Position numbers and translations under genes: made by a program | Notes under the pieces: generated by a model | The model's database searches: none | Seen by the model: the letters and a program-made list of their open reading frames with translations, nothing else | What the model was told of the DNA's origin: nothing | Assembly (NCBI GenBank): GCA_913041495.1 | Contig: CAJWHT010000044.1 | Coordinates: forward strand, 1 to 32,193 | Direction of reading: 5' to 3' | Length of the DNA stretch: 32,193 nt | Source: an uncultured Desulfobacteraceae bacterium | Lineage (GTDB): Bacteria > Desulfobacterota > Desulfobacteria > Desulfobacterales > Desulfobacteraceae | Shown here: positions 2,886-10,180 of the stretch, piece after piece | Numbering within the stretch: position 1 is the first letter of the stretch | Layout: each line of letters opens with the position of its first letter

Positions 2886-2972
2886 ATGGCACTTGAAGAT
2901 AAATATCTTATTGCAACCCTTATATTCTGCGTCCTTTTCGTGGCCTCTTTTGGCTGGGGATGGTGGGGATAA
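2886..2972 (+). CDS. Tiny single-span membrane protein, probable symporter accessory subunit
   Basis: This 28-residue open frame begins at an ATG preceded by a good ribosome-binding site (AAGGAG at 2872-2877, 8 bases upstream). The peptide has a short charged head (about residues 1-7, MALEDKY), one hydrophobic span (8-23) and an aromatic glycine-tryptophan tail ending GWGWWG. It lies between the symporter stop and a strong terminator, so it is the last gene of the transporter transcript. Several SSS transporters are known to be followed by very small membrane proteins, and this one fits that pattern, with a role in assembly or regulation of the symporter inferred. Its small size is the main source of doubt, but start signal, composition and placement all agree. 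Confidence 0.72.
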   Translation: MALEDKYLIATLIFCVLFVASFGWGWWG

Positions 2973-2999
2973 AGCAATCACTTGACATAACCTTATGAG

Positions 3000-3039
3000 A
3001 GAAGAAGAATTCCGGGCCTGTGCCCGGAATTCTTCTTTT
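3000..3039 (+). terminator. Strong intrinsic terminator after the symporter unit
   Basis: A perfect 16-bp stem (left arm 3002-3017, right arm 3022-3037) with a 4-base loop CTGT and a T-rich 3' end at 3036-3039. The arms are rich in GC at the loop end (CCGGGC/GCCCGG). It ends only 10 bases before the ATG of the sensor-exonuclease gene, so it may also affect read-through or translation of that gene. Confidence 0.85.
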
Positions 3040-3049
3040 GTGCCTTTAC

Positions 3050-5095
3050 ATGACCCAAACCAACCGATTCTGGAAATTTGTAGGCCTGAGTCTGACCGGA
3101 ATTCTCATCTTCACTGGATTTTTGGTGTTTTTGATATGGCGGAATCTTGGCGCAGGTCAAAGCCGTGTGCTGTATCAGATCTTTCAGGAAAATCTATACA
3201 CCCTTCTGGGCCTCGCCTTTTTGATCCTAGGCTCCCTGTGGGTGGTCTTTGACATTACCTACAATCGCTACATCCTTCCCCTCAAACGCATGGCCGCTGA
3301 AGCCGGCATGATTTACGACTCTAATCCTTCCCACCGTATCCGCGTCCGCGGCAGCCGGGATATCCGTGAAATGGCCAGAGTCATCAATGATTTTGCCGAC
3401 ATGTTTGAAAACCTCAACAAAACCATCACCCAGCAGATCCTGACGGCCAGAAAAGAAACAGAAAAGGAAAGAAACCTTCTGGCTGCGATCATGGGAGAAT
3501 TGCCCCAGGGTATCGTGGTCTGTAATAAAAACGGACGGATTATCCTGTTTAACTCTCTGGCCAAAAGCCTTTTTACCCCGGAACCCGCCTCAGGGTCTTC
3601 AGAGTTTTTTCTGGGACTTGGACGGTCCGTCTTTCACCTGGTGGACAAGGCATTGATTACCCATGCCATGGATGAAATCATCGAACAGATGAACACCCCA
3701 GACACCTCAATCGGTTCATTTTTTATCACCCCCATTGCCGCAGGTCGGCTCATCAGTGCCGAAGCCATTCCGGTTCTGGACAATGAGCGCCGGATGACCG
3801 GATTCATCCTGGCTTTAAAGGATGTGTCGGAACGCATTGAAAAATACCAGACCGTTGACAATAGTTTGAAAGCGTTCAGGCAGCTTATCCATGCCCCTGA
3901 GCCCATTTCACCAGAGGTGATGGTGGCCTCATTTGACCAAATGGCGCAAGTCATCAAAAACATAACCTTTTCAAGTCTTCCCCTGACCACGCTTCCTTTG
4001 GACACGTTCTTGCCCATGATTCAAAAAAAAGCCGCCTTTCAACTGGATGTCAGGGTAAATATCTTTCGCCCGCCCAACCGCTTGCGGATTCTGGCCGACA
4101 CCTATTCCATCACCCAGGTATTTTTATCTGTGTTTAAAACTTTGGCATCCGGGACCCGGATGCAAGAATTTGATCTAAGTGTATCCGACAATGAAAAACA
4201 GATCGGGTTCCACATCTCCTGGGACGGCACTTTTTGCACCATGTCATTGATAGAGGCCATGATAAAAGAGCGGTTGAACGGACTTCCCAGTCTCGGTTAC
4301 ATATTAAAGTTCAACAACGCCCGCCTTACGCCCCTCACCCGTGACAAAGAAAAGTGTACAGGGATCGGTCTTACCTTCCTTGCCGGAAAACCGTCCGGAT
4401 CTGCCAGAAAGTCCGGTGCACCGGTTATTTCCAATTCCAGACCCGAATACTATGACTTTAACCTGTTCAACGTCACGGACTCTGTTGAGAATGTTCTGGA
4501 CACCCCTTTAAAAAAACTGACCTATACCGTGTTTGATACGGAGACAACGGGATTAAATACGGAAACAGATGAAATCATCTCCATCGGCGCCGTTCGGATT
4601 GTCAATCAACGGATTGCCTACCAGGATTCCTTTGAAGAACTGATCAATCCGGAACGGGACATTCCCATCGCCGCCTATAAGATCCACGGCATCAGCTATG
4701 AGATGGTCAGGGAAAAGCCCACTATCAAGGCGGTGCTGCCGGCCTTTAAGACCTTTGCCTCAAATACGGTTCTTTTAGGCCATAACCTGGCCTTTGATAT
4801 GAAAATGATCAAAGTCAAAGAACCCCTCACCGGTATCCGGTTTGACAACCCCGCCCTGGACACCCTGTTGCTCTCAGCCGTACTTCACCCGGTTCACCAG
4901 CAGCATGACCTGGAAAACATTGCCCGCAGGCTCGGGGTCAATATCCTTGGACGCCACACGGCCTTGGGTGACGCTATCACCACGGCTGAAATTTTCCTGA
5001 AACTTCTACCCATACTCAACAGCAACGGGATACTGACGCTTAAAGATGCCCTGAGGGCTTCAAAGAAAACCTACTATGCAAGATTAAAATACTGA
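3050..5095 (+). CDS. Membrane PAS/degenerate-kinase sensor fused to DEDDh 3'-5' exonuclease
   Basis: 681 residues starting at ATG 3050; a GTG at 3020 would add 10 residues but lies inside the terminator. No Shine-Dalgarno is visible. Order of parts: two membrane spans (about 8-30 and 50-70); a HAMP-like linker (70-125); a PAS-like domain (140-255); a region resembling a histidine-kinase core (270-445) without a convincing phospho-acceptor histidine, N box or complete G boxes; and a DnaQ/PolC-epsilon-type exonuclease (488-650). The nuclease set looks complete: D496 and E498 in FDTETTG, D583 in HNLAFDMKM, and H636 and D641 in HTALGDAITT. The enzyme class removes nucleotides from 3' ends of DNA, RNA or small nucleotides. 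A membrane-sensing input with nuclease output is the likely logic, but the substrate is unknown. The LemA-like gene follows 76 bases later. Confidence 0.85.
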   Translation: MTQTNRFWKFVGLSLTGILIFTGFLVFLIWRNLGAGQSRVLYQIFQENLYTLLGLAFLILGSLWVVFDITYNRYILPLKRMAAEAGMIYDSNPSHRIRVRGSRDIREMARVINDFADMFENLNKTITQQILTARKETEKERNLLAAIMGELPQGIVVCNKNGRIILFNSLAKSLFTPEPASGSSEFFLGLGRSVFHLVDKALITHAMDEIIEQMNTPDTSIGSFFITPIAAGRLISAEAIPVLDNERRMTGFILALKDVSERIEKYQTVDNSLKAFRQLIHAPEPISPEVMVASFDQMAQVIKNITFSSLPLTTLPLDTFLPMIQKKAAFQLDVRVNIFRPPNRLRILADTYSITQVFLSVFKTLASGTRMQEFDLSVSDNEKQIGFHISWDGTFCTMSLIEAMIKERLNGLPSLGYILKFNNARLTPLTRDKEKCTGIGLTFLAGKPSGSARKSGAPVISNSRPEYYDFNLFNVTDSVENVLDTPLKKLTYTVFDTETTGLNTETDEIISIGAVRIVNQRIAYQDSFEELINPERDIPIAAYKIHGISYEMVREKPTIKAVLPAFKTFASNTVLLGHNLAFDMKMIKVKEPLTGIRFDNPALDTLLLSAVLHPVHQQHDLENIARRLGVNILGRHTALGDAITTAEIFLKLLPILNSNGILTLKDALRASKKTYYARLKY

Positions 5096-5171: not shown

Positions 5172-5798
5172 ATGAAAAGCCCCTGGGTCACGTTTGCAGG
5201 TATCTGTTCTCTGGTTTTCGGCATTGTCATTTTCAGCGTTATTTTCGGCGGTTACAGCAGCCTGCTGCGATCGCAAAACCGGATTTACACGGCAAAAAAT
5301 CAGCTTGTTACCCAATGCCGTGAGCAATTGGGCCTCATTGAGGATTTGCCTGGGGCTCAGATGGACGCACTTCCATTGGACACCATGACCCGTCTCAATG
5401 AGGCAACAGGGAAAATTAAACGCATATTGGACGCCATAGAGACCTCAAAAGAACCGCTTGAGCCGAATCTGGTCAACGATTTTGAGTTGGCCCAGATCCA
5501 GGTGAATCAGTCCATTGCCCTGGCGGCAGACCAGATGGGCACAGGTGAAGAGAATAAAGATTCGCCGTCAAATCAAGGGACCGCCGCCTTTAAAAAAAGA
5601 TCTTATGAACTTGAAACCGCGGTATTTATCATGGGGAAACGGTACAACAAGGAAGCGCGGTATTTTAACACCCGCACAATGGTATTTCCCGGATTTTTGA
5701 TTGCACGGCTCTTTGGGCTGGATCGCATAAAATTTCCAGAATTAGATGTCCGGCGCCTGGCACCTTCCGGTGACAAAAGGACCGCCAGTGCATCCTGA
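5172..5798 (+). CDS. LemA-family membrane protein
   Basis: 208 residues, started by ATG after CAGGAGG (5157-5163). An N-terminal span (about 8-28) is followed by helical segments that read as a LemA coiled bundle. The strongest match is the C-terminal stretch around residues 157-190, where RYNKEARYFNTR and FPGFLIARLFG mimic the LemA consensus (YN-x-x-V-R-x-YN ... FP-x-N-L-I-A-x-L-F-G-F). LemA proteins are small membrane proteins of poorly defined role, expected to expose most of the chain outside the cytoplasmic face. This copy is divergent in its first half (the usual RR-D-L-I-P-N-L segment is not clear) and carries an acidic insert near 125-135. It sits inside a putative signalling operon and its stop overlaps the start of the DUF294 gene. 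Confidence 0.7.
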   Translation: MKSPWVTFAGICSLVFGIVIFSVIFGGYSSLLRSQNRIYTAKNQLVTQCREQLGLIEDLPGAQMDALPLDTMTRLNEATGKIKRILDAIETSKEPLEPNLVNDFELAQIQVNQSIALAADQMGTGEENKDSPSNQGTAAFKKRSYELETAVFIMGKRYNKEARYFNTRTMVFPGFLIARLFGLDRIKFPELDVRRLAPSGDKRTASAS

Positions 5799-7680
5799 AA
5801 TCCCCCGCAACCCAGGTCTTCCCTTTGCCGCACTCACGTCGGATGAAGAACGCCGGCTGGTGGACAACCTGGCATTCATCACCATTGCCAAAGGACATGT
5901 CATATACACCCAGGAAATCAGCCGGGTGACCCAAATTTATATTATCGTCTGGGGCCGGCTGTCCTACAGGTTTACCCGTGGGACCGCAACCCTTTTGAGC
6001 GGAACCTTATCCACCAACGATATTTTCGGCGGCTTGTCAGTACTATTTAACGATCACATGGCCATCCATACCCTGGTGGCTTTGGAGGAATGCCGTTGCC
6101 TGGTACTGGACAAGGATCTGTTTACTGATCTTTGCCGGTGCAACCCTGACTTTTTTGATTATTTTGCCCTGCGGCTGGGCAGAGCCATGAAGGACAAAAC
6201 ATTTGCCGATGTTCTTGCCCGCAGGAAACTTGACAGATCCCTCAACCTGCCCTTTTTTAACCAGCCTGTCTCTGCTATTTTCAGGGCCAATATTGCCACC
6301 TGTGCCGAAGACGCCACCATCCGCGAGGCCGCCCGGAAGATGACCCGGCAAAAGGCCAATGCTATTTTGGTTAAATCCAAATCAAAACAAATTAAAGGCA
6401 TCGTGTCGGATTCGGACCTGCGCAGCCGGGTTGTGGCAAAAAACCTGCCCTTGTCCACACCGGTATCGGATATCTTTTCCGCCCCCCTCATTACCATTTC
6501 TTCCGATGCCCAGGTGTTTGAAGCCTTTCTGACCATGGTTAGCAAAGACAAACGCCATCTTGCAGTCACCGGCAACGCAGGAGATATCTCGGGTATCATC
6601 AGTGAAAAAGATCTGATTGATGCCCAGAGCAGATCCACCTTTCTGCTGATTAAATCCGTGCGCGCCGCAAAGGGGATGAAAGATCTGGATAACATCCACG
6701 CCCGGCTTGAACAAATGCTCTTAGATCCCATTGGAAACGGTGCAAATGCCGATTATATCACCCGCTTGATCACCACATTTTCAGATGCAATCATAGACAG
6801 GGTCATCACATTTGCACTGGAACGGTCCGGACCGCCTCCGTGCAGATTCGTCTTTCTGACCATGGGCTCTGAAGGACGCGGGGAGCAAACCCTGATATCG
6901 GACCAGGATAACGCCATTGTATTCGAGGATATGGAAGATGAAGGCGAGGCCAAAGCGGCAAAGGCCTTTTTTGATACCCTTTCTAAACGCATCTGCTCTA
7001 TGCTCGACCGCGCCGGTTATCGCTTTTGTGACGGAAACAACATGGCTCAGAATCCTGATTGGTGCCAGCCCCTGGGCGTGTGGAAATCCTATTTCAAACG
7101 CTGGATCCGGGCCGCATCCCCTGAAGACCTTCTTCATTCCAGCATATTCTTTGATTTCCGACCCACCTGGGGGCAGATTTCCCTGGCAGAAGAACTCAAA
7201 TCATTCCTATTAGCCGCCATCGGCGGCTGGTCTGGATTTCTGCGGAACATGACGGAAAACGCCATCTATTTTAAACCGCCGCTGGGGCTTTTCGGAAAAT
7301 TCATGGTGGAAACCAAAGGAGAGTACAAGGACGCTCTGGATATTAAGCTTTCCATGTTGCCCATTGTTGATTTTTCACGGATATATGCCCTTCAGAACGG
7401 TATCCCCCAGACCAATACCCTTACCCGTTTATTTCGTCTATATACCCGCCATGCCCTGACCTCCAGGGAGTATACCGATATTGTTCAGGCCTATAATTTT
7501 TTGATGGGGCTCAGATTCCGCCGGCAGATCACTGCCGTCATTGACGAAGAAGCAACCCCGGATAACTATATTTATCCCGGCAATCTATCCAGCCTCGACC
7601 AGATGATGCTCAAAGAAACCTTCAGATTGATTGAAAAACTCCAACAGAAGCTGAATATAGAATTTACCGGAGTTGCCTGA
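5788..7680 (+). CDS. cNMP-binding/CBS/DUF294 nucleotidyltransferase-like protein
   Basis: The start chosen is GTG 5788, preceded by AAAGGA with 6 bases spacing and overlapping the lemA-like stop by 11 bases; ATG 5746 is an alternative that adds 14 residues without a ribosome-binding site. From GTG the chain has 630 residues: a cyclic-nucleotide-binding-type domain (about 15-130), two CBS repeats (about 160-290), a DUF294 nucleotidyltransferase-like domain with the GSEGRGEQ signature and two aspartates (D372, D374 in SDQDN), and its C-terminal substrate-binding-like domain (about 440-625). The Pol-beta fold resembles GlnD, which uridylylates PII proteins, so nucleotide transfer to a protein or small molecule is plausible but unproven. 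cNMP and CBS domains suggest control by nucleotides. endonuclease IV starts one base after its stop. Confidence 0.88.
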   Translation: MHPEIPRNPGLPFAALTSDEERRLVDNLAFITIAKGHVIYTQEISRVTQIYIIVWGRLSYRFTRGTATLLSGTLSTNDIFGGLSVLFNDHMAIHTLVALEECRCLVLDKDLFTDLCRCNPDFFDYFALRLGRAMKDKTFADVLARRKLDRSLNLPFFNQPVSAIFRANIATCAEDATIREAARKMTRQKANAILVKSKSKQIKGIVSDSDLRSRVVAKNLPLSTPVSDIFSAPLITISSDAQVFEAFLTMVSKDKRHLAVTGNAGDISGIISEKDLIDAQSRSTFLLIKSVRAAKGMKDLDNIHARLEQMLLDPIGNGANADYITRLITTFSDAIIDRVITFALERSGPPPCRFVFLTMGSEGRGEQTLISDQDNAIVFEDMEDEGEAKAAKAFFDTLSKRICSMLDRAGYRFCDGNNMAQNPDWCQPLGVWKSYFKRWIRAASPEDLLHSSIFFDFRPTWGQISLAEELKSFLLAAIGGWSGFLRNMTENAIYFKPPLGLFGKFMVETKGEYKDALDIKLSMLPIVDFSRIYALQNGIPQTNTLTRLFRLYTRHALTSREYTDIVQAYNFLMGLRFRRQITAVIDEEATPDNYIYPGNLSSLDQMMLKETFRLIEKLQQKLNIEFTGVA

Positions 7681-7681
7681 T

Positions 7682-8542
7682 ATGAACCGGACCCACTTTT
7701 TCGGTGCCCACTTCTCGGTTGCCGGCGGACTTGAGAATGCCTTATACAGGGCTCAGGAACTCAATTGTGATGCGGCACAGATTTTCACCAAAAACGCGCG
7801 CACCTGGAAAGATCCGGAACTGACCCGGGAACAGGTGACCCGTTTTGATAATGCCAGAAAGAAAACCGGTATCACCCGGATCTTCTCCCATTGCACCTAT
7901 CTGATCAATATCGCGTCAACGGAACCTGAAAAACTTAAAAAATCCGTATCCGTTCTCAGGGCGGAGATGGCACGCTCCGGTACCTTGGGCTTAAAAGGCG
8001 TTGTTCTTCATCCCGGGGCCCATCTTGGCCGGGGCACCGAAGCCGGACTTGAGACGGCCCGGTCAAGTCTTAATGCCGTGTTATCCTTGGACGACGGCTG
8101 GTTTCCCGAACTTCTCATCGAAACCACCGCAGGCGCCGGCACCTGCCTGGGCAGCCGGTTTGAAGAAATCGGCCAGTTGATCCGAAGTCTTGACCGTCCC
8201 GAAGCGGTTGGGGTCTGCCTGGACACCAGCCATGTGTTTGCCGCAGGATATGATCTGCGCACCACCGCTGCCCTGAACGGGACTTTGGATGCCTTTCACC
8301 GGCATATCGGCATGCAGCGGCTCAAGTTGATTCATGCCAATGATTCCATTCCATCTCTGGGAAGCCGGAAAGACCGCCACACCCATATCGGCGCAGGCCT
8401 GATCGGCCGCAGCGGTTTTGGGGCACTTATGACCGATAACCGCCTTAAATTCCTACCCGTTATTCTGGAAACCCCGAAAGAAGCAGATGGGGCTGACATG
8501 GACGAAATCAATCTGAATTCGCTCAGAGAATTGGCACTTTGA
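7682..8542 (+). CDS. nfo: Endonuclease IV (AP endonuclease)
   Basis: 286 residues from ATG 7682, with GGAG at 7669-7672 and only one base after the upstream stop; TTG 7673 is less likely. Endonuclease IV cuts DNA 5' to abasic sites and removes blocked 3' ends during base excision repair. The trinuclear zinc ligands of the family are all visible at expected spacing: H70, H110, E147, D181, H184, H218, D231, H233 and E263, in segments such as VLHPGAH, LIETTAG, LDTSH, LIHANDS and RKDRHTHIG. Length matches the family (about 280). The close coupling to the DUF294 gene suggests co-transcription, though endonuclease IV is a housekeeping repair enzyme and need not share a pathway with it. Confidence 0.95.
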   Translation: MNRTHFFGAHFSVAGGLENALYRAQELNCDAAQIFTKNARTWKDPELTREQVTRFDNARKKTGITRIFSHCTYLINIASTEPEKLKKSVSVLRAEMARSGTLGLKGVVLHPGAHLGRGTEAGLETARSSLNAVLSLDDGWFPELLIETTAGAGTCLGSRFEEIGQLIRSLDRPEAVGVCLDTSHVFAAGYDLRTTAALNGTLDAFHRHIGMQRLKLIHANDSIPSLGSRKDRHTHIGAGLIGRSGFGALMTDNRLKFLPVILETPKEADGADMDEINLNSLRELAL

Positions 8543-8665: not shown

Positions 8666-10180
8666 ATGAACAATCCCAAAAAACAGTATGCAAAAAGCGA
8701 GATGCTGTCATTTGCCGCGGAAGCCCCACAGGACAGGCCGCTTGCTCCCCATAAAAGCTTCAAACTGTTGATTGTGGATGATGAAAATGAAATCCATGTG
8801 ATGACAAAACTGGTTCTCAACGATTATCAATACCAGGATTACGGTCTTGAGTTCATCTCCGCATTTTCAGGTGCCGAGGCAAAAGAGGTGTTAAGGCAGA
8901 CGCCAGATATTGCCTGTTGCCTGTTGGACGTGGTGATGGAAACCAAAGATGCCGGACTGGACGTGGCCAAATTTATCCGGGAGGAAATCAATAACACCAA
9001 AATACGCATCGTACTGAGAACGGGGCAGCCCGGCAAAGCCCCGGAAAAAGATGTCATTCTCAACTATGATATCAATGATTACAAAGAAAAAACAGAACTG
9101 ACCAACCAAAAGCTTTTCACCACCATTACCACGGCGCTTCGTTCTTACATTCACCTGGTGGAACTAGAGGAAAAAAACAAGGAAATCAAGGCAAAAAATA
9201 TACGGCTGAACGAAGAAATCGCCCGAAGAATTGTTGCCGAATCCAACCTCACCAAGTACAACAGAAGCCTTGAGCGGATGATTGAAAGCAAAACCCAGCG
9301 GCTCAAAGACGCTCTGAGCACGCTTGAGGCCACGGAAAAGCAACTGATGGTCACCCAGAAAGCCGCCATTGTTTCCGACCTGTCCGCAGCCTCTCTGGAT
9401 TCCCTGACTTCCTCCAATGAGATGATCAGAAGCAATCTTTCAAAGATGACCCGGTATCGTCAGCAAATCACCTTTCTGCTTGAAAAATACAACACCCTTG
9501 AAGCGATCATCACGTCACATAAGGGAACCCGGCAGGAACTTGAAGCGGCGGCACGGGCCCAGACCCGTGAAATAGAGGCCTACAAATCTGAGATAGACCT
9601 GGATGCCATCCTCGAAAAATACCCCCAAATAATCCAGGATTCCATCGAAGGCATTCAGAAAATCGCCGATGCCATCAACGATATCAAACTCTTTGTTGCC
9701 ATCAATGATGAGCCCCATAAATCCGTCGATCTCAATTCACTGGTGAAGGATATCTCAGGCAGACTCACGTACCAAGACCGGCGTATTAATGTGCAGTTGG
9801 ATTTGCAGGAGATCCCTGAAGTCACCCTGCCAAAACAAAGTATCTGCCAGGCGATTCAGGCCGTTGTGGACAATGCACTCAAGGCCGTTGCCACCCAGGG
9901 CATCATCTCCATATCCAGCCGGTACGAAGATCCATGGATTTCCATCACAGTCAGTGATATCGGTGTGGGGATTACCCAGGAGGCCATGGAAAAGATATTT
10001 ACCCCCTACTACACCGGATGGCATAACGGCCATAAGGGGCTCGGCTTATCCTTTGCCAAAAGTACAATTCTAAGCTGCGGTGGTGATATCAAGGTATCGA
10101 GCACCGCCAGCGAGGGGACCACCGTGGTCATCTATCTTCCCAGTCAGACACCGGCTCCTGAAATTCCGCCCAGACCATAA
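8666..10180 (+). CDS. Receiver domain fused to kinase-like ATPase lacking the phospho-histidine
   Basis: 504 residues, ATG after GGAG (8657-8660). A CheY-type receiver (about 32-150) has the acidic pair D38/D39, phospho-acceptor D88, T119 and K140. A coiled-coil linker (155-235) follows, then a dimerisation-like segment and a HATPase domain (355-492) with N box N403, G1 box DIGVG (431-435) and G2 box GLGL (458-461). Where related kinases have HEINNP, this protein has D245 followed by SLTSS, so the usual phosphorylated histidine is absent. The ATP site looks intact. It may bind ATP without autophosphorylation, phosphorylate through another partner, or transmit receiver state by dimer contacts. 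There is no membrane span and no output DNA-binding domain, and no cognate partner lies next to it. Confidence 0.85.
   Translation: MNNPKKQYAKSEMLSFAAEAPQDRPLAPHKSFKLLIVDDENEIHVMTKLVLNDYQYQDYGLEFISAFSGAEAKEVLRQTPDIACCLLDVVMETKDAGLDVAKFIREEINNTKIRIVLRTGQPGKAPEKDVILNYDINDYKEKTELTNQKLFTTITTALRSYIHLVELEEKNKEIKAKNIRLNEEIARRIVAESNLTKYNRSLERMIESKTQRLKDALSTLEATEKQLMVTQKAAIVSDLSAASLDSLTSSNEMIRSNLSKMTRYRQQITFLLEKYNTLEAIITSHKGTRQELEAAARAQTREIEAYKSEIDLDAILEKYPQIIQDSIEGIQKIADAINDIKLFVAINDEPHKSVDLNSLVKDISGRLTYQDRRINVQLDLQEIPEVTLPKQSICQAIQAVVDNALKAVATQGIISISSRYEDPWISITVSDIGVGITQEAMEKIFTPYYTGWHNGHKGLGLSFAKSTILSCGGDIKVSSTASEGTTVVIYLPSQTPAPEIPPRP

Follow-up and report, generated by a model that had tools for sequence, protein, structure and literature searches.

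We describe a gene of an uncultured Desulfobacteraceae bacterium (GenBank assembly GCA_913041495.1; source genome of 5.77 Mb) whose product joins a membrane sensor to a DEDDh 3'–5' exonuclease domain. The gene lies at 3050–5095 on the forward strand of the window, by which we mean the whole stretch of 32 193 nucleotides analysed (contig CAJWHT010000044.1). It codes for 681 amino acids from ATG 3050, and full-length relatives exist. On balance, we regard the protein as a membrane one-component sensor with an exonuclease output, placed inside a monocarboxylate module and partnered by a DUF294 protein. Sequence comparison and fold prediction reveal its architecture, a degenerate kinase core, an intact set of predicted catalytic residues and a recurrent gene partnership, and they place it in an old, widespread and conserved family.

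The exonuclease domain (4508–5092, forward strand) matches the Pfam family RNase_T (PF00929) over residues 494–649 with E = 6.9e-35 and 121.5 bits (cut-off 24); the same family was matched in all 50 members scanned. The DEDDh set proposed in an earlier note on this DNA (D496, E498, D583, H636 and D641) is exactly the one found, and it is invariant in the family. Among the 152 distinct members gathered, window included, D496 and E498 are each present in 151 of the 151 rows reaching them, D583 in 149 of 149, and H636 and D641 each in 147 of 147; the gaps come from members L032, L113, L118, L122 and L166, which are truncated or stop-broken. The nearest solved structures are the PolC, DnaQ, DinG and ExoX exonucleases (2p1j, 1j53, 8h2f and 8zef), and the best named family matches are of the PolC, PRK07883, DnaQ and DinG types. 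The domain shares fold and catalytic residues with the exonuclease domains of PolC, DnaQ and DinG, but it is joined to a membrane sensor, with no polymerase or helicase in the protein, and forms its own clade. The NCBIfam equivalog for PolC is far from reached (141.5 versus 873 bits), and the window protein also falls below dnaQ_proteo (99.2 versus 222.7 bits) and PRK09146 (61.8 versus 266 bits). Among the matches listed, no equivalog cut-off was reached by this protein or by the relatives L188, L171 and L067. The broader subfamily-domain model TIGR00573 was passed (99.9 versus 71.5), and a PHROGs search returned mainly phage polymerase and exonuclease families. Judged by its conserved residues, the nuclease is very probably active.

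The nuclease is preceded by a degenerate histidine kinase core with a dHp and CA fold (3842–4384, residues 265–445). The earlier note had seen here a kinase-like core devoid of a phospho-histidine and of full ATP boxes; profile, fold and box analyses agree. No match to HisKA or HATPase_c at E ≤ 1 was found with Pfam in the window protein. For 50 members, HATPase_c is not among the 25 families listed, and HisKA is weakly matched in five (best 0.0087). The kinship with kinases is visible from a profile of residues 265–466 and relatives, which matches solved histidine kinases in the PDB (best 4.2e-7) and, with up to 52 bits, the kinases encoded beside members L167, L171 and L188. Structure prediction, proposed earlier as a check, gave a clear core fold: the AlphaFold2 model of residues 265–466 has a predicted local distance difference test score of 89.6, and Foldseek aligns it with histidine kinase structures (best 4kp4 at 1.0e-8; 296 matches at E ≤ 1e-3), the best 50 matches listed being histidine kinases and related folds (phytochrome, LvrB). 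The full-length model, by contrast, reaches a predicted template modelling score of 0.41, and domain–domain coupling therefore cannot be read from it.

The columns for the kinase boxes were chosen from alignments of the core with histidine kinases. At the G1 box an Asp is present in none of 147 rows and a Trp in 134. No DxGxG stands at the G1 position in any of the 152 members; a single DAGHG string, in L172, lies elsewhere. The phospho-histidine column holds a His in five of 145 members, four of which (L097, L099, L107 and L172) have a true-looking H box by eye; the window has a Gln at the aligned place, in a clade for which the H-box alignment is unsure. At the N-box column there is an Asn in 25 of 147 members and a Thr in the window, and the full N-box motif occurs in none of the 152. 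GxGx strings occur in four rows, those of the window (GIGL) and of three relatives, as pattern matches only. The total loss of the G1 Asp and the rarity of the phospho-histidine indicate that the pseudokinase state is ancestral. A recent decay of the kinase in the window lineage was rejected, since the G1 Asp is missing from all 147 rows reaching it, in every phylum sampled.

In four members (L042, L060, L110 and L112) only 35–101 residues separate PAS domain and nuclease, versus 188–270 in nearly all others listed. These four still align over the N-terminal membrane and PAS part and keep the DEDDh residues, so the most constant parts of the family are the membrane spans, the PAS domain and the nuclease. 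L093 also showed 101 residues between PAS and nuclease, but has a long open reading frame (ORF) and is perhaps misaligned. The core and the nuclease are joined by a signature linker, RPEYYDFNLFN in the window (4436–4468) and RPEFYDFDLF in the family consensus, which is also worn in three of the four short-core members.

At the N-terminal end, the two membrane spans of the earlier note were confirmed by hydropathy and by the model. The first lies at 3071–3133 (about residues 8–28; helix 4–31 in the model) and the second at 3194–3262 (about residues 49–71), the two hydrophobic stretches corresponding to 19-residue scanning frames that begin at residues 7–18 and 48–53. Only about 20 residues lie between the spans, which leaves almost no periplasmic sensing domain; sensing is thus likely to take place in the membrane or the cytoplasm. 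Of the HAMP-like and PAS-like parts noted earlier, the second stands and the first stays a weak match. The HAMP-like part (3278–3403, residues 77–118) is below threshold (Pfam HAMP, E = 0.033) and weak in relatives too, with five of 50 members matching at E ≤ 0.1. The PAS-like domain (3476–3835, residues 143–262) rests on Pfam and the alignment; PAS_4 is just under its cut-off in the window (E = 1.4e-4, 22.5 bits versus 23.1) and firmer in relatives, with PAS_4 at 1.2e-8 in L171 and PAS_9 in 41 of 50 members. Columns C158, N168, G189, R192 and G251 of this domain are invariant in 70 aligned members, and the codon of the invariant cysteine C158 is at 3521–3523. As to the start codon, the alternative GTG at 3020 falls within the stem-loop of a strong hairpin (3000–3039), which makes ATG 3050 the likelier start.

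The family was assembled after dropping identical ORFs and substrings, which gave 98 rows with the window; 26 of 80 further ORFs were then dropped as duplicates, giving the 152 members. Two working alignments were used: A3, with the window and 69 of 78 listed loci, and A4, with the window, 43 of 53 listed loci and nine near relatives. A match at E ≤ 1e-10 is present in 53 of 78 genomes of the same taxonomic family (full-length, up to 72 per cent identity) and a match at E ≤ 1e-15 in 93 of 192 genomes of the class, both counts including genomes in which the match is only a partial one or a stand-alone nuclease. When one genome per species was scanned for the motif [EV][FY]YDF[DN]LF directly before the nuclease, at least 80 loci were found, each with a family ORF. 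According to the record titles, the carriers in that scan are Desulfobacterota, Zoogloea, Dechloromonas, Aromatoleum, Herminiimonas, Noviherbaspirillum, Competibacter and Chloroflexota, together with Pseudomonas indica, P. sagittaria and single metagenome-assembled genomes (MAGs) labelled Ignavibacteriae, Spirochaetia and Actinomycetota. Besides Desulfobacterota, the range thus takes in Beta- and Gammaproteobacteria, Chloroflexota and other groups; among named loci, those of Desulfobacteraceae and Desulfobacula records are nearest to the window.

The gene context supports the link to carbon supply proposed in the earlier note. In the window, the sensor-exonuclease gene is preceded on the same strand by an AMP-forming acyl-CoA ligase gene (2–949; best match propionate-CoA ligase), the 5' part of which is cut by the contig start, and by an SSF sodium:solute symporter gene (1072–2853), identified by profile matches and the neighbour survey; the neighbours suggest a monocarboxylate as the substrate of the symporter. 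It is followed by the gene of a DUF294 protein (5746–7680, forward strand) with cyclic-nucleotide-binding (cNMP), CBS, nucleotidyltransferase (GSEGRGEQTLISDQD) and substrate-binding domains. Neighbours were counted for 100 distinct members with at least 3 kb of flank on each side and were classed roughly, by best match and length. SSF genes lie within 5 kb of 75 members, DUF294 genes of 72, AMP-forming ligases of 68 and transporter-kinases of 42; 95 members have at least one of these module genes within that distance. DUF294 is the most frequent partner after the symporter; the earlier note had overlooked it, as it had the breadth of the family. Of 81 DUF294 genes near members, 69 lie on the same strand downstream of the member, and the nucleotidyltransferase motif GSxGRxEQ....DxD is retained in 77. 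In most loci, searched with the neighbours from the window as queries, the symporter is upstream and the DUF294 frame downstream, often within tens of bases, distances being measured to open frames (stop to stop) and not to start codons.

The name transporter-kinase follows from the first 560 residues of the kinases beside L167 and L188, which match PDB 10ed_A, a 606-amino-acid 'histidine kinase' taken here to be CbrA, at 5e-71 and 2.1e-80. The similarity of their membrane part to SSF proteins is weak (best BLAST match 2e-5; profile comparison probability 1.4%), and Pfam SSF did not match the two kinases. The gene order in Aromatoleum (L188) is acetyl-CoA synthetase, transporter-kinase, lone receiver domain, sensor-nuclease and SSF; in an Anaerolineae MAG (L167) it is DUF294, transporter-kinase, lone receiver domain, sensor-nuclease and acetyl-CoA synthetase. 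The lone receiver domains (122–123 amino acids; L188 6575–6943 and L167 6621–6986) stand directly before the sensor-nuclease and behind the CbrA-like transporter-kinase. A phosphorelay input to the nuclease protein through such a domain is possible.

The association with DUF294 was also measured without starting from the fused gene, genome-wide in 50 genomes of the class, source genome included, by comparing the positions of 53 RNase_T matches (E ≤ 1e-10) and 50 DUF294 matches (E ≤ 1e-15). A DUF294 gene lies within 3 kb of 14 of 19 fused genes, of five of six stand-alone genes (240–320 amino acids) and of none of 28 other RNase_T genes. The classes follow open-frame length, and all 19 fused genes are also family matches; the 596-amino-acid ORF G014:C22 was placed by hand in the class of 470–560 amino acids because its genome has no family match, and counted otherwise it gives 14 of 20 fused and none of 27 others. 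If the genome is assumed to measure 4.1 Mb, chance adjacency amounts to about 0.0016 per DUF294 gene, whereas 19 of 50 were observed. Each of the two RNase_T genes found in the source genome has a DUF294 domain at most 2 kb away. The second of these pairs, with a stand-alone RNase_T, is at G000:C180:555-2243 (L002, L263); its nuclease L002 passes PRK09146 (275.4 versus a cut-off of 266), and Glu takes the place of the third catalytic Asp in both L002 and L257. Among ten named genomes, Desulfofustis glycolicus has one DUF294 pair of each nuclease type, and Noviherbaspirillum has DUF294 after its fused gene. The genomes of P. indica, P. sagittaria and a Pseudomonas sp. have DUF294 beside a non-fused nuclease, and their fused gene is elsewhere.

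In the exonuclease tree, 29 fused nucleases form one clade (100/99) and six non-fused nucleases paired with DUF294 form another (96/85), in which long branches meet; 12 other exonucleases stand apart from both. Bootstraps in this tree are not settled, ORFs among L225–L254 that the family profile did not match at E 1e-5 are not represented, and the non-fused frames of GC-rich genomes extend from one stop codon to the next, up to 891 amino acids. A derivation of the fused nuclease from the non-fused one that pairs with DUF294 was not supported, the two being separate clades. The DUF294 tree, also with unsettled bootstraps and lacking rows for four of the ten stand-alone loci (L002, L268, L269 and L270) and for L031, has a clade (100/98) in which the DUF294 partners of six fused genes group with those of three non-fused Pseudomonas nucleases. 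The six are L172, L176, L181, L182 and L195, with betaproteobacterial labels, and L190, labelled Proteobacteria. The DUF294 proteins that accompany fused genes in Desulfobacterota fall in a separate clade of 30 rows (100/99). The idea that DUF294 co-diversified with a single nuclease type was rejected, because the partners are mixed and the fused label needs ten changes. DUF294 genes classed as unpaired are interleaved in the tree; at least one of these, L273, is cut off by the end of its contig and may partner a truncated fused gene, L122, that belongs to the same genome. Since related DUF294 proteins sit beside either nuclease, the simplest reading is that DUF294 needs the nuclease chemistry rather than the sensor.

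A comparable pair of genes is known from Pseudomonas. In a study of P. putida (PMC9927547), pp_0354, coding for a CBS protein, and pp_0353, coding for an RNase_T protein, form an operon whose promoter is bound by ErdR (CrbR), within the MxtR/ErdR (CrbS/R) regulon linked to acetate and pyruvate. Loss of pp_0353 delays growth on pyruvate, loss of pp_0354 gives no pyruvate phenotype, and neither gene is required on acetate or succinate. Homologues adjoin actP in P. aeruginosa (PMC9927547), which fits a remark of the earlier note on short exonucleases near similar transporters. In P. fluorescens, the CrbS/R target Pflu5625 is described as having cAMP-binding, CBS and nucleotidyltransferase domains and is predicted to act by nucleotidylation; by analogy, pp_0354 may be of the DUF294 type. 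Likewise, DUF294 is paired with a non-fused RNase_T gene in the Pseudomonas genomes examined here. The window nuclease differs from the PP_0353 type in being fused to a membrane PAS-pseudokinase, and the Pseudomonas pairs belong to the other clade. The search of the open-access literature found no work joining 'DUF294' and 'exonuclease', and its titles and abstract openings describe no dead sensor kinase fused to a nuclease.

Other systems share parts of this design. The SLC5(-STAC) kinases CrbS, CbrA and RpuS have a detectably related core (52 bits to the kinase beside L167), but here the symporter is a protein of its own, and a dead kinase has a nuclease as its output in place of phosphotransfer. 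A CrbS/CbrA-type SLC5 sensor kinase was accordingly rejected for this protein, which has only two membrane spans and whose SSF is a separate gene. DivL and RetS, both found among the PDB matches, are atypical histidine kinases that act on other kinases; they also use the histidine kinase fold without or beyond ordinary kinase chemistry, whereas the window scaffold is fused to its own enzyme. Membrane sensors of the PAS-EAL and PAS-HD-GYP types have a phosphodiesterase-type output; the window protein differs in its DEDDh exonuclease fold and in the pseudokinase in between. The protein is of a known kind, both as a membrane sensor with an enzyme output and as a DEDDh nuclease that has DUF294 for a partner; its output is unusual.

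We propose that a signal read by the PAS domain or the membrane part would be relayed through the HAMP-like or coiled helix and a structural, non-catalytic histidine kinase core to the DEDDh domain, which would cut nucleoside-monophosphate bonds. The protein would act within a short-chain monocarboxylate module of an SSF symporter, an acyl-CoA ligase and often a CbrA-like transporter-kinase. The architecture bears out the earlier view of a pseudokinase sensor joined to an apparently intact nuclease, and it is fairly likely that the sensor gates the nuclease; a functional partnership with DUF294 in monocarboxylate use has a still stronger claim and is likely. The chemistry that we favour is antagonistic: DUF294 may attach nucleotidyl groups, either on a protein or at the end of an RNA, and the nuclease would take them off again, so that the sensor would reset the mark and monocarboxylate uptake and activation would be tuned. 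This writer and eraser chemistry is a tentative suggestion that we would not yet bet on. The DUF294_C domain is grouped with the C-terminal domains of the GlnD/GlnE type, and RNase Z acting as a deAMPylase offers a precedent for a nuclease that erases a nucleotidyl mark (PMC12663964). The pyruvate phenotype of the pp_0353 but not the pp_0354 mutant would fit an eraser whose loss leaves the mark in place, and fits other models too. A bolder and rather doubtful extension is a phosphate-free counterpart of two-component systems, in which DUF294 would mark a protein or RNA end of the uptake pathway in response to cNMP or adenylate ligands and the PAS-pseudokinase nuclease would erase the mark on a change of its signal, the nuclease slot having been filled at least twice (free and fused).

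Several observations weigh against a gated exonuclease partnered by DUF294. No DUF294 lies within 5 kb of 28 of the 100 members in the census, and L033, L034, L120, L121 and L149 lack any module gene. In the genome-wide test, DUF294 is absent from the 3 kb around five of the 19 fused genes, and for four of these the contig shows no DUF294 up to 10 kb away. Of the ten named genomes, five have no RNase_T within 3 kb of DUF294, namely those of Aromatoleum, Herminiimonas and Competibacter as well as the Actinomycetota and Chloroflexaceae genomes. The species-wide motif adjoins the nuclease, and that scan could thus not find sensors lacking one. The low score of the full-length model belongs here, as do the remnants of kinase boxes (HisKA matches, His, Asn and GxGx) reported above. 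Because the pp_0354 mutant has no pyruvate phenotype, the partnership is not proven genetically; the assignment of pp_0354 to DUF294 is itself drawn from the description of Pflu5625, and the pp_0353 data carry over by analogy only, the stand-alone nuclease being of a different clade.

RNA decay and the hydrolysis of small nucleotides are serious rivals. In the first, which is possible but rather improbable, the protein would be a membrane-anchored 3'–5' exoribonuclease that trims or decays specific mRNAs or small RNAs (sRNAs), for example of uptake or central-carbon genes, on a PAS signal, with DUF294 acting separately or tagging RNA ends. The domain is closest to the PolC/DnaQ-type exonucleases, which cut single-stranded 3' ends. 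Henriquez et al. speculate on a role of pp_0353 in mRNA decay (PMC9927547). However, no RNA-binding domain was found in the Pfam scan of the protein, such an enzyme does not need membrane anchoring, and the pairing with DUF294 would be unexplained unless DUF294 works on RNA. In the second, which we consider unlikely, the protein would be a phosphodiesterase for a small nucleotide signal (a dinucleotide, a linear pNpN or a nucleotide-acyl compound) made or handled by DUF294, comparable to the PAS-EAL and HD-GYP sensors with another output fold. DEDDh-type enzymes include the dinucleases Orn and NrnC, and the DUF294 protein has ligand domains of the cNMP and CBS types; yet dinucleases are not among the best named matches of the nuclease, and we know of no product of DUF294, which counts against this rival.

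A membrane-tethered exonuclease for DNA repair or proofreading is very unlikely. The PolC and DnaQ exonucleases among the best family matches, and an endonuclease IV gene that follows the DUF294 gene at 7673–8542, would favour it, but the PolC and DnaQ equivalog cut-offs are far from reached and the genes often found nearby are those for transport, CoA ligases and DUF294. A repair unit with endonuclease IV was rejected, as that gene stands beside only two other loci, L035 and L038, among 195 loci, many of them short-flanked. A defence role was also rejected, the PADLOC matches, to DEDDh CAS-associated and two PDC-S48 models, covering nothing beyond the DEDDh domain and the neighbours being metabolic. 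That the core still works as a histidine kinase with the nuclease as a passenger is scarcely credible: the fold, the distant profile match and the few His and Asn residues at the aligned positions speak for it, against the absence of the G1 Asp, of DxGxG at G1 and of a full N-box motif, the near loss of the core in four members whose nuclease stays intact, and the invariance of the catalytic set.

Further features accompany the module in the window. Behind the symporter gene, 2886–2972 (forward strand) codes for a hydrophobic membrane microprotein of 28 amino acids, MALEDKYLIATLIFCVLFVASFGWGWWG, with no match in Pfam or NCBIfam. A microprotein of exactly this length and the same pattern is present in 53 of 54 distinct loci in which the symporter precedes the sensor gene by at most 900 bp. 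Compared with that of the window, 27 close copies show 231 synonymous versus 100 non-synonymous codon differences. Between the symporter unit and the sensor gene lies the hairpin at 3000–3039 (forward strand), terminator-like, with 18 bp, -29.8 kcal/mol and z -7.2; its stability suggests separate transcription or attenuation. The promoter and terminator consensus scan of the window, which did not list it, gave no clear excess over shuffles. A promoter-like match (10/12) at 2982–3010 overlaps the hairpin start. Between the sensor-nuclease and DUF294, 5172–5798 (forward strand) codes for a membrane protein of 208 amino acids, weakly LemA-like, detected only in the nearer loci (single-sequence search, E ≤ 1e-8). 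Downstream of the module, 8666–10180 (forward strand) codes for a receiver domain before a HATPase_c histidine kinase end; a similar gene lies near L035, L038, L039, L123, L125 and a few others.

The family makes two so far unexplained members of the CrbS/R regulon, pp_0353 and pp_0354, and DUF294 proteins generally, accessible to concrete tests. Given the breadth of the family, its output may be an unrecognized layer of control over the use of acetate, propionate and pyruvate, in sulfate reducers among others.

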